IMG/VR virus record: IMGVR_UViG_3300035682_000139
Coordinates: 1 to 28,876 of that record
DNA from: a virus
Reading direction: 5' to 3' (one strand)
DNA length: 28,876 nt
Made by a program: the position numbers and the translations under genes. The notes beneath the pieces were generated by a model. It was given only the letters and a program-made list of their open reading frames with translations. It searched no databases and was not told the origin of the DNA. Below are positions 1,112 to 8,921 of this stretch, one piece after another; within the stretch, counting starts at the first letter, position 1; each line of letters starts with the position of its first letter.

Positions 1112-1473
1112 GCTGTTTTTCCTTTCACTAAGAGGACGAGTCCATTCCGTCCAATTTGGGGAGCTACAAAAGTCAGTTTTCGAACAATGTCAGGTGTGTC
1201 GTCTGTCAACACTCCTGCGTCAACTAACCCGTCTATTGCTGCTTTAGCTGCTGGATGACAAGATCCTGTGTCTTGCATACCTGAGCGGTTTTTCAACCAC
1301 GGTTCTATGGTGATCTCACACCAGTCTAACCGGGGTGGACGTGCTTGCAACGCTAAAAAACAAAAAGCTTCCCGCCATTCTTTTGTTTTTTTTGCTCGTT
1401 CCCAACGATTCCCTGCTCGTTCAGCGTTGGTAGTCCACGGCCTAACGTCATATTCCAAACTGAAAGAGATCAT
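1108..1473 (-). CDS. RusA-like Holliday junction resolvase
   Basis: The 121-residue length and the segment KAAIDGLVDAGVLTDDTPDIV (about residues 77-97) match RusA-family endonucleases, whose conserved aspartates (here candidates D68, D81, D91/D92) bind metal. The N-terminus PWTTNAERAGNRW fits the family's opening. RusA resolves four-way junctions made by recombination-dependent replication, which suits a phage that also carries Gam and a candidate annealing protein. Start and stop overlap neighbours by ATGA on both sides (1470-1473 and 1108-1111), so it sits inside a tight operon with the C5-methyltransferase and the HTH gene. Confidence 0.8.
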   Translation of the reverse strand: MISFSLEYDVRPWTTNAERAGNRWERAKKTKEWREAFCFLALQARPPRLDWCEITIEPWLKNRSGMQDTGSCHPAAKAAIDGLVDAGVLTDDTPDIVRKLTFVAPQIGRNGLVLLVKGKTA

Positions 1474-2405
1474 CGGAAACTGGGATTTCCTAACACTCCA
1501 GCTATCACATGAGCAGCAAGCAACGGGGGGATCGCATTCCCAGCTTGTTCAAACTGCTTACTTTTTGAACCTTGTATCGGATAGCCATCTGGAAACGACT
1601 GAAGCATTAGAGCTTCGTTCGCTTCTAGTTTCGTTTCAACACCATCACGTTCCCACCGCCAAGCATTAGAACCTGAGGTAAGTGTCCAAACTGGTGCATT
1701 TGAGGGCATTCGCCAATAGTAGTCAACGCCGGTTACGTCATCACGTACCTTTTGCTTACCATCCGCATTTCTTGGACGATCTGGTTTTGCTTGGTTATGC
1801 CTAAGCATTGAACCAACTCGACTGGGTAGAACGTCTTCCATTGACAACCACGGTTGCTCAGATTCACCGAACAAGGTTTCCTGCGGTTCTTTTGCATGAG
1901 ACGGGATAGGCCGAAACATCCGCTGCGATTTTGACGCCATCAGAATTGCTCTTCGTCGGATCTGGGGGACTCCATAGTCTGCTGAATTCAACACCCCTGT
2001 CCATGTTGAATATCCAAGCATTTGAAGCTGCTCTGCATATTCTTCCCATACAGGAAGCGCAGGGGGAACTTGTTCACAGGCCACCCATTCTGGGGACAAC
2101 GCTTCTGTCCATCGCATCACTTCGCTTATCAGCTTGCCTCTTGACCCTTCAATCCCTGTTCTTTTGCCAGCTAACGAGAAATCTTGACAGGGCGGCGAAG
2201 CTATTACACCTTCAACTTTGCCTACTAACTGATCTAACGGATATTCGCTGACATCACACCGAATTGTTTTGTGACCTGCTGTTTTTCTTGTATTGCAAGC
2301 TTGTTCGTCCCATTCAAATCCTATTTCTTGGTTCATAAGAGCAGGGTTCACGAGACGCAATCCTTCTGACCATCCTCCAAGGCCAGCGAACAGATCTACG
2401 ATCAT
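1470..2405 (-). CDS. DNA (cytosine-5-)-methyltransferase
   Basis: A 311-residue enzyme with the ordered motifs of C5-cytosine methylases: motif I DLFAGLGGWSEGL (residues 4-16, AdoMet binding), motif IV SPPCQ with catalytic C73, a CEQV segment in place of the ENV motif, motif VIII-like QIRRRAILMA, and motif X QAGNAIPPLLA near the C-terminus. It should transfer a methyl group to C5 of cytosine in a short target; the recognition sequence cannot be read. No restriction endonuclease is seen, so it is most likely a solitary phage methylase that protects its DNA. It lies directly after the DpdA-like gene and is coupled to RusA by ATGA. Confidence 0.92.
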   Translation of the reverse strand: MIVDLFAGLGGWSEGLRLVNPALMNQEIGFEWDEQACNTRKTAGHKTIRCDVSEYPLDQLVGKVEGVIASPPCQDFSLAGKRTGIEGSRGKLISEVMRWTEALSPEWVACEQVPPALPVWEEYAEQLQMLGYSTWTGVLNSADYGVPQIRRRAILMASKSQRMFRPIPSHAKEPQETLFGESEQPWLSMEDVLPSRVGSMLRHNQAKPDRPRNADGKQKVRDDVTGVDYYWRMPSNAPVWTLTSGSNAWRWERDGVETKLEANEALMLQSFPDGYPIQGSKSKQFEQAGNAIPPLLAAHVIAGVLGNPSFR

Positions 2406-2414
2406 TTTGTTTTT

Positions 2415-3035
2415 TCACCTGCTGGAAACATCAAACCTCAACGATTGTTCACTATTGACGATTTCTAACCACTTCAATACTTTTTTTAGATTTGTTGTTG
2501 GCCCAAACGTGATGTGAGTTCCATCTACAGAATCTGCACCTGTCTGGGTTGCCCAGCGGATACGACGCAAACTATTGACTCGACCAACGTGCGCCCAAAC
2601 TTTTTGCTTGTTTGCGTGTCTAATGATCTTTTCAGAATCAGGACTCAATTTCCATTCGGTTGAACCCCCAATGAAAACACACGAGATATTTTCCCAATCA
2701 ATTTCTTCAATCACAGCTCCATCTTGTGCAACGCAGGCAACTGGCAATTTTTCTGCTCGCATTTTGTCGGACCAGAGATCATAAAGTTTCCGTGTTGCGT
2801 CCCAATCTTCAACAACGTCTGGACAACAAGCGAATCTTATTGTTGGTTCAAATTTGGTTACCCATTTCCACCATTTGTCTGATTCCCATTTACTTGAGAA
2901 ACAACCGTTATCAGCGCACCAGTCTGCGCCGGGAACGTGTTTGTTGCCTTGCTTGGGGGTGTCAATGAAACCAAGCAAACCATCACTCATTGCTTTTTTC
3001 ACTTCTTCGCTACAAGGATTTGCGTAGTACAACAC
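2415..3035 (-). CDS. dpdA: DpdA-like tRNA-guanine-transglycosylase-fold enzyme for 7-deazaguanine insertion into DNA
   Basis: The 206-residue product carries the active-site landmarks of the tRNA-guanine transglycosylase fold in the right order: ADNGCF (residues 41-46, like the TGT DSGGF loop, D42), FIGGSTEW (121-128, like the TGT base-recognition GG loop) and HVGRVNSLRRI followed by GADSVDGTH (167-174, with D171 as candidate nucleophile). The TGT zinc-binding cysteine motif is absent, as in short phage DpdA proteins, which exchange guanine in DNA for a 7-deazaguanine. I chose GTG at 3035 because GGGGA lies seven bases upstream; the longest frame opens at TTG 3053 without such a site. It overlaps the transporter gene by 26 nt, which ties the two functions together. 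Confidence 0.85.
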   Translation of the reverse strand: MLYYANPCSEEVKKAMSDGLLGFIDTPKQGNKHVPGADWCADNGCFSSKWESDKWWKWVTKFEPTIRFACCPDVVEDWDATRKLYDLWSDKMRAEKLPVACVAQDGAVIEEIDWENISCVFIGGSTEWKLSPDSEKIIRHANKQKVWAHVGRVNSLRRIRWATQTGADSVDGTHITFGPTTNLKKVLKWLEIVNSEQSLRFDVSSR

Positions 3036-3528
3036 GTCGACATCCCCAAGCAACAGGCGTAGCAGCTAACACAACTATCGCTTTAGCGATACCTAATTCC
3101 CACCAACCACTCCAACTACCAAAAGCGATCCTCAAGAACACCGCTGAATCAAGGAAACCAGCTACATATCCAGAGATTGATATCCCAAGTAGGAACTTTC
3201 CACGATTAGCCAATGGCGTGAATATTGCAGCATCTGTGCTTTCTGAGATTAGGAACGCAATCCCTGACGCAAGTGCCAGTTGAGGACTGGCTAACCACCA
3301 TGACAGCAAAGTCCCCAGAGCAATAGATCCCCAAGCAAATGATTTTCCTAAGGTGATCTGGGTCAAATCACGAAGAACAAACGAAATAGCAACCACCCAC
3401 AATGCCGAAGGCAAAGGACCAAGCCACGGCGAAATCCACATCCCATTGTTCGTTAACCACCAATTAGCGAATGGGATACTGCAAACAAAACCTGCAAGTG
3501 AGATCGCTCCAACAATTTTGATTTTCAT
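3010..3528 (-). CDS. VUT/YhhQ-type 7-deazaguanine (preQ0) precursor transporter
   Basis: The 172-residue, strongly hydrophobic protein has about five to six membrane spans. It contains the family signatures VLRDLTQITLGK, ALASGIAFLISESTDA and GYVAGFLDSAVFLRIAF, which match the VUT/YhhQ (queuosine precursor transporter) family. The start is ATG at 3528 with AAAGGAG four bases upstream; the longer frame back to 3630 has no such site. YhhQ members import preQ0-type bases across the inner membrane. The stop overlaps the DpdA-like gene, so the pair probably feeds imported base to the DNA-modifying enzyme. The exact substrate (preQ0, preQ1 or another base) is inference. Confidence 0.85.
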   Translation of the reverse strand: MKIKIVGAISLAGFVCSIPFANWWLTNNGMWISPWLGPLPSALWVVAISFVLRDLTQITLGKSFAWGSIALGTLLSWWLASPQLALASGIAFLISESTDAAIFTPLANRGKFLLGISISGYVAGFLDSAVFLRIAFGSWSGWWELGIAKAIVVLAATPVAWGCRRVVLRKSL

Positions 3529-3556
3529 GCTGCTCCTTTGATTATTTGACTGATTG

Positions 3557-4793: not shown

Positions 4794-5253
4794 CTAGCGA
4801 AATCCTTCCGGGTGTGAGCAGAACTTCAACGTCATGCCGTTTTTGCGAATCTTCGTAGATCCGCATGAACTGTGCTCGCATGGTTTCCAAATTCGCTGAT
4901 TGACAGATGTTCCACCAACCCACGGTCTTGACAGCTTCTGCAACAACTGGGCTTGTGAAGGATGGCGAGCTGCTACGTCCAGAGGTTGACGCTTGCGATG
5001 ACACCTCTCCCCATGCTTCTGCTGATGATGGAGCCAATATCCCAAGCCTTCCGGCAACTTGCCTACGGATTCTGGCAATCGTGGGCCAACGATCTTCTGT
5101 GCATATGAGATCACGCACGGCGTGTCTTGCTTCGCTGTAGTCCACATCTGAGAGGGCGTCGGCATAAACAGCAACCGTTTCCTTTGTAGCGGGCCATTGG
5201 GGGAACGCTGCTGCTATCACAGCAACAATTGAGGCGGCTTCTCTTTCGTTCAT
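4741..5253 (-). CDS. Replicative helicase loader-like protein
   Basis: The 170-residue protein begins MNEREAASIVAVIAAAFPQW, then has YADALSDVDYSEARHAVRDL and WPTIARIRRQVA. This is the layout of phage helicase-loader proteins related to the loader of G40P-type helicases: a short helical domain that recognises the DnaB-like helicase. I moved the start to ATG 5253, which has GGGAG eight bases upstream; the longer frame to 5484 reads back into the replisome-organiser gene and is implausible. It follows that gene by 28 bp, the classical initiator-then-loader order. The helicase itself is not in this window and may be the host's. Confidence 0.7.
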   Translation of the reverse strand: MNEREAASIVAVIAAAFPQWPATKETVAVYADALSDVDYSEARHAVRDLICTEDRWPTIARIRRQVAGRLGILAPSSAEAWGEVSSQASTSGRSSSPSFTSPVVAEAVKTVGWWNICQSANLETMRAQFMRIYEDSQKRHDVEVLLTPGRISLDGPRNSVSIGEVVAITK

Positions 5254-5281
5254 TGTACACACTCCCGTTAGTTGAGTCCGG

Positions 5282-6067
5282 TTACCTGTTGTCAAGATCT
5301 GCCAAGAAATCACGAACACCAGCAAGACCTTTAGCCCCACCAGATTTTTGTTCTTGCATAGCTTGTAGACGCATACGGTCATATTGCTTACGCAACTTTT
5401 CGGGCGACATGATATTTCCTCGCCAAAAATCGTTGGCTTGCGACCACCGCATCGCTTTCTCAATTTGCTCTGGCGTTCGACCATCTAACCGAATCATCCG
5501 GTCAATAGCCTGAGTCCACCGTTTTGTGATCACCGGACGTTTAGAACCATTGCTTTCAATCAAATCAGCTAGGAGTTCCGCTAACCGAAAAGAATCGTCG
5601 GACTCTCTTTTAGATATCTCTGTCGTAATCTCTGTCGTAATCTCTGTATTAGAAGCGCCCTGTTGGGCAGATGGAACTGCCTGTTTAGGCTCTTGGACCT
5701 GCCCTGTTGGGCAAATGGAACTGCCCAAATGGGCAGATGCAGAATCTTCGTACAAAACGTCACTTGAGTAGTCAACTCGGTACCACTTGCGACGGTTCCA
5801 TGATTCGGGCTGACAAGACCTAACAACACCCCGAGCTTCCAGACGTTCAATCGCTGTCCTGACTTGTTTAGGAGTCACGCCTATCTCGTCTGACCATTCT
5901 TCATACGTCTTCCAAACCCAAGTGAAACCTTCATGTCTTGACTGAGCACGTTGCATCCAATAATGCAACTGCTGTAAAACAGCGGCGTCCAACACATGGC
6001 CTAATGCCCTTACAAGCACCGGCTGAATAACCAAACATGGTTCATCTAACAAGAGCGCCGAACTCAT
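5282..6067 (-). CDS. Replisome organiser / replication initiator (winged-helix)
   Basis: The 261-residue protein has an N-terminal winged-helix region (about residues 25-100): QLHYWMQRAQ, the recognition-helix stretch EIGVTPKQVRTAIERLEARG, and a wing ending RKWYRVDY. A low-complexity linker (about 105-150) contains TEITTEITTEIS. The C-terminal helical domain includes RWSQANDFWRGNIMSPEKLR, typical of phage replisome organisers that bind the origin and recruit helicase. The start is supported by AGGAG and by a start-associated sequence 12 nt before ATG. The linker region carries DNA repeats used in different reading frames, so the origin probably lies inside this gene, as in lambda O. Confidence 0.8.
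   Translation of the reverse strand: MSSALLLDEPCLVIQPVLVRALGHVLDAAVLQQLHYWMQRAQSRHEGFTWVWKTYEEWSDEIGVTPKQVRTAIERLEARGVVRSCQPESWNRRKWYRVDYSSDVLYEDSASAHLGSSICPTGQVQEPKQAVPSAQQGASNTEITTEITTEISKRESDDSFRLAELLADLIESNGSKRPVITKRWTQAIDRMIRLDGRTPEQIEKAMRWSQANDFWRGNIMSPEKLRKQYDRMRLQAMQEQKSGGAKGLAGVRDFLADLDNR
5616..5648. repeat. 12-bp tandem repeat in the initiator gene
   Basis: The plus strand has ATCTCTGTCGTA at 5616-5627 and 5628-5639, then a partial third unit at 5640-5648. It encodes the TEI-TTEI-TTEI linker of the replisome organiser and lies beside the GCCC-N4-GGGC dyads. Confidence 0.85.
5657..5733. other. Candidate origin of replication: three GCCC-N4-GGGC dyads in 25-bp direct repeats
   Basis: A 25-bp unit starting GCCCTGTTGGGCA occurs at 5657-5681 and again at 5701-5725 with one mismatch. 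A third dyad (GCCCAAATGGGC) is at 5722-5733. The two long copies are read in different frames by the initiator gene (one gives SSICPTGQ, the other VPSAQQG), so the conserved thing is the DNA, not the protein. Repeats inside an initiator gene are the hallmark of lambdoid origins. Binding is inferred. Confidence 0.5.
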
Positions 6068-7939: not shown

Positions 7940-8056
7940 AAAGTGCAAAAATAACCCTGTGAAATGGGAAAACGTCTGACGCTTCCAAGAATGAATATGG
8001 GTAGTGCAACAGGTACAAATACGCTTAGAACCCAATTTAGAGGGCAATGAGAGCAT
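7931..8056 (-). CDS. Possible 41-residue Cys-rich microprotein (copy 1)
   Basis: ATG at 8056 opens a 41-codon frame with a C-x-C-C cluster at C14, C16 and C17. The diverged copy at 26247-26372 has a frame of exactly the same length, with its start (TTG) and stop in the same columns. 21 residues are identical, including L8-G9-S10-K11-R12-I13-C14, C16-C17-T18-T19, I21-H22 and W24. Several changes between the copies are silent (two Arg codons, one Phe codon), but replacements are more numerous, so coding is plausible and not proven. The ribosome binding site is weak (TTAGG). A structured RNA is the alternative. Confidence 0.35.
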   Translation of the reverse strand: MLSLPSKLGSKRICTCCTTHIHSWKRQTFSHFTGLFLHFLN

Positions 8057-8075
8057 TTGACCTAACAAGGGTTTA
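7948..8075. repeat. 128-bp duplicated intergenic element, copy 1
   Basis: Aligns without gaps for at least 90 bases, and at about three quarters identity overall, to 26264-26391, 18 kb away. The best conserved blocks on the minus strand are TTGGGTTCTAAGCG and TGTTGCACTACCC. Both copies sit at a module boundary. The copy overlaps the 41-codon frame at 7931-8056. Confidence 0.85.
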
Positions 8076-8114
8076 CTGCACAAATGTCTATCAAAAAGAC
8101 AAAAAAGTGCCAGT

Positions 8115-8441
8115 TCACTCAGCCCAATTGGGCTTTTCAATCACATCTTGGCCTAACGTTACGGGAGCTATTTCGTTAGAAGATTCAGAAACGCTTTTAA
8201 CGATTGGAGCTTCAATCTTGTATTGCGGTGCTCCAACTGCTCCTAAGAGCAACCCCGTCTTCGGCCAACGAGCTTCCATCAGTCTCACCACTCCATAGTA
8301 AACCGTGGCAACCAGAGCGTCGACAGCTGGCAAGAGAACATTTACGTCAACACTAATTCCACGGGCAGCAAGCCAAGTGACAACCGATCCAACCATTACT
8401 GGCACGAAAGTCCGGATCATTGAACGTGTGTAATCAGTCAT
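8115..8441 (-). CDS. Holin-like membrane protein
   Basis: The 108-residue protein has two hydrophobic stretches (about residues 10-27 and 33-53) separated by a short turn. They are followed by VYYGVVRLMEARWPKTGLLLGA and a hydrophilic tail. The RxxVPxxVG opening, the YYxxVRxxEARWPKxGxLLG stretch and the size match putative holins of actinophages. It overlaps the previous gene by eight bases. Holins open the membrane for lysis; the CHAP endolysin of this phage is 16 kb away, so lysis genes are split. Confidence 0.7.
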   Translation of the reverse strand: MTDYTRSMIRTFVPVMVGSVVTWLAARGISVDVNVLLPAVDALVATVYYGVVRLMEARWPKTGLLLGAVGAPQYKIEAPIVKSVSESSNEIAPVTLGQDVIEKPNWAE

Positions 8442-8817
8442 TGGGATTACCTTTCATCAAAGCCACTTTTTCGGCAAGCTCAAGAATTTTTGTGGAGTTC
8501 TCACCGGTCTGGTATTTCACCGTATCAAGTCGATCAGAGATTGACCGCCGATCCCCATTCGTCGGACGCAACGCTTCATGAATATCTTTGATCTGAGATT
8601 CCATCATATCTAACCGCTCTGAATGATCTGGGACTTCTTGCAGTCTTACAGCAGCATCGTTGATAGACGAAACAACGGATGCGCCAGATCTCCAAACCGG
8701 GAGGATAGCCATTTTTACAATCGCACCAAACGCTGCGACAACAGCACCGACCATGATGATCTCATTGAGAACACCACTTTGCCAGTTGTCCGGAATGAGG
8801 TCTAGGGCAGCTATCAC
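8434..8817 (-). CDS. Membrane protein with one TM helix and coiled coil (second holin/lysis candidate)
   Basis: The 127-residue protein has one membrane helix (about residues 19-43, LNEIIMVGAVVAAFGAIVKM). A charged, heptad-like region follows (ERLDMMESQIKDI, DRLDTVKYQTG, KILELAEKVALM). Such proteins stand beside holins in many actinophages and may act in lysis timing. The start is GTG at 8817 with no ribosome binding site, but TACGCT lies six bases before GTG, which would fit a leaderless mRNA. It is coupled to the holin-like gene by an eight-base overlap. Confidence 0.6.
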   Translation of the reverse strand: MIAALDLIPDNWQSGVLNEIIMVGAVVAAFGAIVKMAILPVWRSGASVVSSINDAAVRLQEVPDHSERLDMMESQIKDIHEALRPTNGDRRSISDRLDTVKYQTGENSTKILELAEKVALMKGNPND

Positions 8818-8921
8818 TAAATTAGCGTAGCAAATTCTTTTATTTCAGTCATAAGGCGATTCAACGGAAACCAAATTTTTTGATCATGCTGACGCTTGTT
8901 TTGTTTCTATTTGTTCGTTTT

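Follow-up and report, generated by a model that had tools for sequence, protein, structure and literature searches.

A short DpdA-like gene overlapping a Vut_1-type transporter gene as a probable salvage-and-insert cassette for 7-deazaguanine in phage DNA

Two overlapping minus-strand genes in a linear IMG/VR virus record are best explained, with a probability of about 0.75, as a salvage-and-insert cassette for a modified DNA base. We propose that the first gene encodes a transporter that would supply the infected cell, from outside, with a ready-made 7-deazaguanine base (preQ0 being the likeliest), and that the second encodes a minimal, single-domain DpdA that would swap guanines in DNA for the imported base via the TGT mechanism. 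An earlier note, made from the sequence alone, had suggested such salvage. The idea is now supported by comparative genomics far beyond what the sequence alone could offer, through the pairing of the two genes and the near-exclusion of genes for base synthesis.

The window, that is, the whole stretch of 28,876 bases (48% GC) that we analysed, carries siphovirus-type head and tail genes. Its source appears to be a phage of Actinobacteria, as judged from a capsid maturation protease that is closest to those of Arthrobacter phages and from an encoded protein with an Rpf-like transglycosylase domain. Reading frames are open at either end of the 28.9-kb contig, which is apparently a fragment. Models of FolE, radical SAM (QueE type), QueD, QueC, and QueF found no match anywhere in the contig, in agreement with the earlier note, which had no queuosine biosynthesis gene in view; since the contig is a fragment, this result is for the contig, and the rest of the phage may still hold such genes. 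We also considered the C5-cytosine DNA methyltransferase that follows the pair as a part of the unit, and rejected it, as it is present in only two of 188 related clusters; it is a separate modification, seldom linked in relatives. The gene row of the C5-cytosine methyltransferase also holds an adenine methylase that is truncated by the end of the contig (Table 1), and with both present several DNA modifications may be stacked in this phage.

Table 1. Positions of the gene pair and of neighboring features in the window
Feature	Position	Strand	Basis or remark
Vut_1/YhhQ-type membrane transporter, 172 aa	3010..3528	-	ATG start; Pfam PF02592 (Vut_1), PHROG 4899
Good ribosome-binding site of the transporter, AAAGGAG	3533..3539	-	read from sequence
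Short DpdA-like transglycosylase, 206 aa	2415..3035	-	GTG start; PHROG 15826 E 4e-58
Overlap of the two genes (26 nt; end of the transporter, start of the dpdA-like gene)	3010..3035	-	coordinates
C5-cytosine DNA methyltransferase	1470..2405	-	Pfam PF00145 E 3.9e-42; 9 nt after the dpdA-like stop, same gene row
Adenine methylase, cut by the contig end	1..306		same gene row as the C5-cytosine methyltransferase

The transporter belongs to the Vut_1/COG1738 family (E=5.8e-9; 36.9 bits against a gathering cut-off of 27.2), and its model (pLDDT 93.4) shows six long helices, consistent with a six-helix membrane topology. In both respects it resembles E. coli YhhQ, the preQ0 transporter of COG1738, which is of the same Pfam family and is likewise a six-helix membrane protein; it is, however, distant from YhhQ (E 0.012 against NF008406), and its substrate is only predicted. 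Against TIGR00697, the queuosine precursor transporter equivalog, the protein scored 31.2 bits (E 1.8e-7), below the cut-off of 50.95. A PDB fold search with the transporter model returned no significant match and a weak likeness to ECF S-components. We regard the protein as a putative importer of preQ0 or of a similar 7-deazaguanine base.

Both open reading frames lie on the minus strand and share 26 nt, as the earlier note had described, and this overlap likely couples the translation of the transporter and the dpdA-like gene. The longest reading of the dpdA-like frame starts at a TTG (2415-3053); the coding sequence most likely begins at the GTG at position 3035, because the resulting N-terminus, VLYYANPC, fits the family start MLYxANP. 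The short DpdA-like protein has no match in Pfam or NCBIfam, and PHROG 15826, to which it belongs, is labeled "unknown function". The two aspartate loops that had been pointed out previously, ADNG and SVDGT, are both present (D42 and D171), and their aspartates are invariant in the 57 aligned relatives, as are D73, Q104, and H149 (57/57 each). D42, D73, H149, and D171 each have an invariant counterpart in DpdA1, and in the hhalign alignment H149 falls opposite His196 of phage 9g, so that the protein holds a catalytic-type aspartate pair together with a DpdA-type histidine. The same alignment sets D168, not D171, opposite the DpdA1 nucleophile; we prefer D171 on account of its invariance and of the SVD[SG] motif. 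By likeness to TGT, Asp171 would act as the nucleophile and Asp42 as the second catalytic aspartate, while Asp73 would recognize the base and His149 would be the DpdA-type histidine. Hutinet et al. (2019, PMC6884629) name His196 of 9g as a histidine that DpdA enzymes conserve and that DpdA2 lacks.

We built an AlphaFold2 model of the short DpdA with 57 IMG/VR sequences (pLDDT 95.1, pTM 0.90) and compared it with the PDB by Foldseek. The top match was the TGT structure 4ghr (E=2.3e-5), TGT made up most of the top 50 matches, and the DpdA crystal structure 7ui4 appeared at rank 41 (E 1.7e-4). TM-scores to TGT were modest (0.5-0.6), and thiazole synthase and transaldolase barrels also matched. 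No relative came up when the short DpdA was compared with solved structures by sequence; only the fold search yielded any. The predicted structure is thus a TGT-type (beta/alpha)8 barrel, as the earlier note would have had it.

Since the closest fold is that of tRNA TGT, the pair might instead serve tRNA, with the TGT-like enzyme putting the imported base into host or phage tRNA as a queuosine-type modification that aids translation. Vut_1 proteins do supply the tRNA queuosine pathway in bacteria. We nevertheless consider a role in tRNA unlikely. The short protein has no match to PF01702 and no C-terminal tRNA-binding part, and the CxCxxC zinc site, whose cysteines had already been noted as missing, is not visible in its sequence. 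Moreover, at the profile level it matches DpdA1, an enzyme acting on DNA, and its family co-occurs with phage preQ0/DpdA1 DNA-modification clusters. Most hosts that bear the pair are also without TGT: in 13 bacterial genomes with the pair (in prophages or similar), and with genome incompleteness taken at face value, the tRNA TGT is absent from 10 and QueC from 8. In most of these genomes, the pair therefore cannot serve host queuosine, and the base must come from outside.

The sequence kinship of the short DpdA points to DNA modification. Comparison by hhalign gave a probability of 93.7% against DpdA1 (9g, CAjan, Rinkes, and others) and 89.8% against the rhizobiophage-type DpdA-like proteins, whereas 12 control families or proteins reached at most 1.7%. 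We observed no similarity to the DpdA2 of nt-1 (hhalign 0.2%), and DpdA2 is without the His196 that the short DpdA retains. A direct search with a DpdA1 profile (E<=1e-3) found no match in the window record or in 44 others holding the short DpdA, and weakly touched one other short DpdA (L075, E 2e-4); the 206-aa protein therefore stands outside the DpdA1 subfamily, whose members are of ~300 aa and match the profile directly. Taken together, the profiles and the model argue for a TGT/DpdA-superfamily enzyme that is nearest to DpdA1 and reduced to a single barrel. Its substrate would be DNA, given the kinship with DpdA1 and the genomic company of the gene. Phage DpdA1 (in 9g, CAjan, and Rosebush, together with FolE, QueD, QueE, and QueC; PMC6884629) is also a phage-borne TGT-type DNA transglycosylase with two catalytic aspartates and the His196-type histidine; unlike the protein in the window (~200 aa, with a base that is apparently imported), DpdA1 is longer (~290-330 aa, including a C-terminal extension) and comes from phages that make preQ0.

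Several relatives have been called 'DpdA-like tRNA-guanine transglycosylase' by SEA-PHAGES annotators. These genes of Arthrobacter and Mycobacterium phages are of the same family (38-44%), and several have the same neighboring transporter, but they were annotated singly and the adjoining transporter was left as 'membrane protein' or 'hypothetical'. Two further subfamilies, DpdA3 and DpdA4, were reportedly defined by Cui et al. in 2023; the short family of PHROG 15826 may overlap one of them, and a part of it has possibly been named already.

We then followed the gene pair across related loci. A scan of viral contigs with the single protein returned nothing, while a profile of eight sequences returned 232 relatives, from which 80 loci were taken, and three further scans with other family members added loci. 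A scan of bacterial genomes gave 36 relatives, mostly in Actinobacteria, plus Chloroflexi, Paenibacillus, and others. In divergent phages, the relatives keep both genes in the same order, often overlapping. Of the clusters at 80% identity that have a transporter (n=106), 74 have it immediately upstream of the DpdA-like gene, and 11 have it upstream but separated by a QueF-like gene; it is farther upstream in 7 and downstream in 14. In the first locus set, 29 of 44 transporter-bearing clusters have an overlap of 1-49 nt.

The same loci show that the transporter and the synthesis genes tend to exclude each other. Of 50 whole records, 34 have Vut_1, 7 have QueC, and 6 have QueD, and none of those with Vut_1 has QueC or QueD. 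Among 201 clusters (90% identity), 110 have the transporter and 21 have QueC/QueD, with a single cluster, contig L259, having both where ~11 would be expected (Fisher p=5e-7); the exclusion holds among 188 clusters at 80% identity (p=1e-6). Thresholds matter, since at 50% identity the first locus set shrinks to only 16 clusters and the signal is gone, and a tree-based pair test was used instead. On the tree, the 'make' state arises in many separate places. We compared nearest pairs on disjoint branches whose members contrast in synthesis genes; of 16 such pairs, the transporter differs in the opposite sense in 10 and in the same sense in none (sign p=0.002); stricter starred-branch pair tests give the same direction but are underpowered (median p 0.125 and 0.5). 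Short-DpdA phages usually import or make the base, and almost never do both. About one-third of the clusters have neither a transporter nor synthesis genes in their flanks, some of which are short; the complete phages R6L and JY42 are included here. The idea that transporter-less phages infect preQ0-making hosts was unsupported, as host QueC does not predict the presence of the transporter (5/13 genomes with the pair versus 8/21 others, 34 bacterial genomes in all).

To approach the pair from the other side, a transporter-first search covered GenBank phages and returned 24 records, 15 of which also hold the short DpdA. One record, MT837598 (L135, 'Bacteriophage sp.'), was rejected as a phage; it is a bacterial chromosome with hemH, grpE, and dnaK next door. 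All 23 true phage records carry the transporter near a transglycosylase. In the other eight, it sits beside DpdA-like proteins of other families or inside full preQ0 and DpdA1 clusters. The former arrangement is seen in Pam5, RHph_N3_2, RHph_X2_30, and phiLM21, in which the transporter adjoins, or lies two genes from, a TGT/DpdA-like protein (PHROG 887 in N3_2 and PHROG 1279 in phiLM21, both 'queuine tRNA-ribosyltransferase'), and the latter in EC151, K4PH164, and yong3. Import and synthesis are thus not universally exclusive, given these three phages and the short-DpdA contig L259, which have both. The rhizobiophages and the Pseudanabaena phage Pam5 (L131-L134) present a second, independent form of the transporter-DpdA pair.

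Every true phage transporter of this family that the GenBank search returned accordingly sits with a 7-deazaguanine transglycosylase, and these enzymes fall into at least three PHROGs. Because gene order in phages is in part a matter of inheritance, the two genes could in principle adjoin by chance or by common hitch-hiking; we find this extremely improbable, because the pair with its overlapping frames is kept in relatives down to ~30-40% identity, because the transporters have paired with three different transglycosylase PHROGs, and because the cluster counts (above) speak against it. The pairing is not by chance.

A further question is whether the short DpdA is itself the catalyst. With a length of only 206 aa, it might assist or regulate another transglycosylase as a subunit, or be a decayed copy, and leave catalysis to that other enzyme; TGTs do work as dimers. 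Full DpdA1 and synthesis genes also occur beside the short DpdA in four records: Arthrobacter phage Sonali, Vibrio phage R29Z, and contigs L036 and L086. We judge such a subsidiary role quite improbable, as the catalytic-type residues are invariant in every aligned relative. In addition, searches of transporter-bearing records with the DpdA1 profile, the complete phages ReqiPine5, Aoka, and Bhagsy among them, detected no DpdA1, so that no transglycosylase other than the short DpdA was detected in these records. In Sonali (L003), the short DpdA (5001-5618) is accompanied by a full DpdA1 (7988-8878) and by QueC/D/E.

The short DpdA may have its own, second role in the records that also carry a full DpdA1. 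Their existence is compatible with a function in counter-defence, whereby the enzyme would remove or scavenge 7-deazaguanines, stripping host marks or draining the base of a host Dpd or QueC-like defence, rather than mark phage DNA; QueC-family proteins reportedly act in CBASS and Qat defence. This is very improbable in our view, since a transporter that brings in more base works against removal, and since synthesis genes replace the transporter in other members of the family.

Other arrangements of the gene were also observed. In L085 (5533-10524), the short DpdA domain heads a very long open reading frame, whose C-terminal part, as read from the sequence, is DarB-type antirestriction/methylase polyvalent-like and has no Pfam match; a gene of Erythrobacter phage ZS04 that matches this fusion is annotated DarB-like. 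The short DpdA is fused to a possible PD-(D/E)XK nuclease in L037 (6022-8604; PF12705 E 4.5e-4, below the cut-off), and to an unknown C-terminal domain in L043 (3418-4626). A PAPS-reductase-like gene lies near the pair in L004 (5724-6641), L028, L056, and L068, possibly linked to another modification.

Import followed by insertion, the reading that we favor, would in some relatives include an additional step. Arthrobacter phage Aoka encodes, between the transporter and DpdA (L002, 4667-4996), a 109-aa protein that scores above the Pfam QueF cut-off, and small QueF-like proteins recur at the equivalent place in a Nocardia farcinica genome (L091) and in six further viral contigs. Seven loci besides Aoka share the pattern HLCPF...E.D...ELHSLR.Y...SHE, with the cysteine and the aspartate kept; the lysines of the usual ESKSxK motif are changed. 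The gene accompanies the transporter in 11 of 12 clusters and never accompanies synthesis genes. Its product would fit a preQ0-converting enzyme of the QueF or QueF-L type, which might alter the base first, giving an order of import, conversion, and insertion.

The 2019 survey counted 76 phages with DpdA only, suggested host preQ0 or uptake as the source of their base, and found YhhQ uncorrelated with any phage group (Hutinet et al., 2019, PMC6884629). Of this third group, Orion on M. smegmatis, a host without a preQ0 pathway, had unmodified DNA, and Salmonella phage 7-11 had a trace of dADG (PMC6884629). Such phages resemble the window in having a transglycosylase without preQ0 synthesis, for which exogenous uptake was proposed; Orion, however, has no transporter match, whereas in the window the transporter gene runs into the dpdA-like gene and so forms one unit with it. 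In EC151, a preQ0 transporter was reported in 2021 besides full synthesis (PMC8310023). There, as in other Seuratvirus phages, a Vut_1-type transporter likewise lies in a 7-deazaguanine DNA-modification cluster, but with full synthesis and DpdA1, and it was described as a supplement, not as the sole source. The uptake idea for DpdA-only phages is thus not new, and a phage preQ0 transporter has already been described; three things appear to be new: the coupling of importer and DpdA in one cassette, the rarity of synthesis genes alongside it, and a role for PHROG 15826, which the counts suggest.

Judging from these sequence comparisons, a minimal DpdA with an importer in place of synthesis occurs commonly in actinobacteriophages and also outside them. 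No group in the 2019 survey was larger or less understood than the DpdA-only phages, whose base had an unclear source, and the present counts offer a testable answer. Isolates that carry the pair are held in collections: Mycobacterium phages GreaseLightnin and Bhagsy, Arthrobacter phage Aoka, and Rhodococcus phage ReqiPine5. A DNA-guanine transglycosylase of only ~200 aa, as predicted here, could also be a tool for placing 7-deazaguanines in DNA. By analogy with other phages (PMC6884629), the modification would protect against restriction. We tentatively extend the proposal, at slightly less than even odds, to a base made entirely outside the cell: the phage would import 7-deazaguanine released by other microbes and write it into its DNA with a minimal enzyme, the protection of its genome would be set by what the community excretes, and the strategy would be widespread. 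If true, whether a phage resists restriction would hinge on a nutrient from other organisms.
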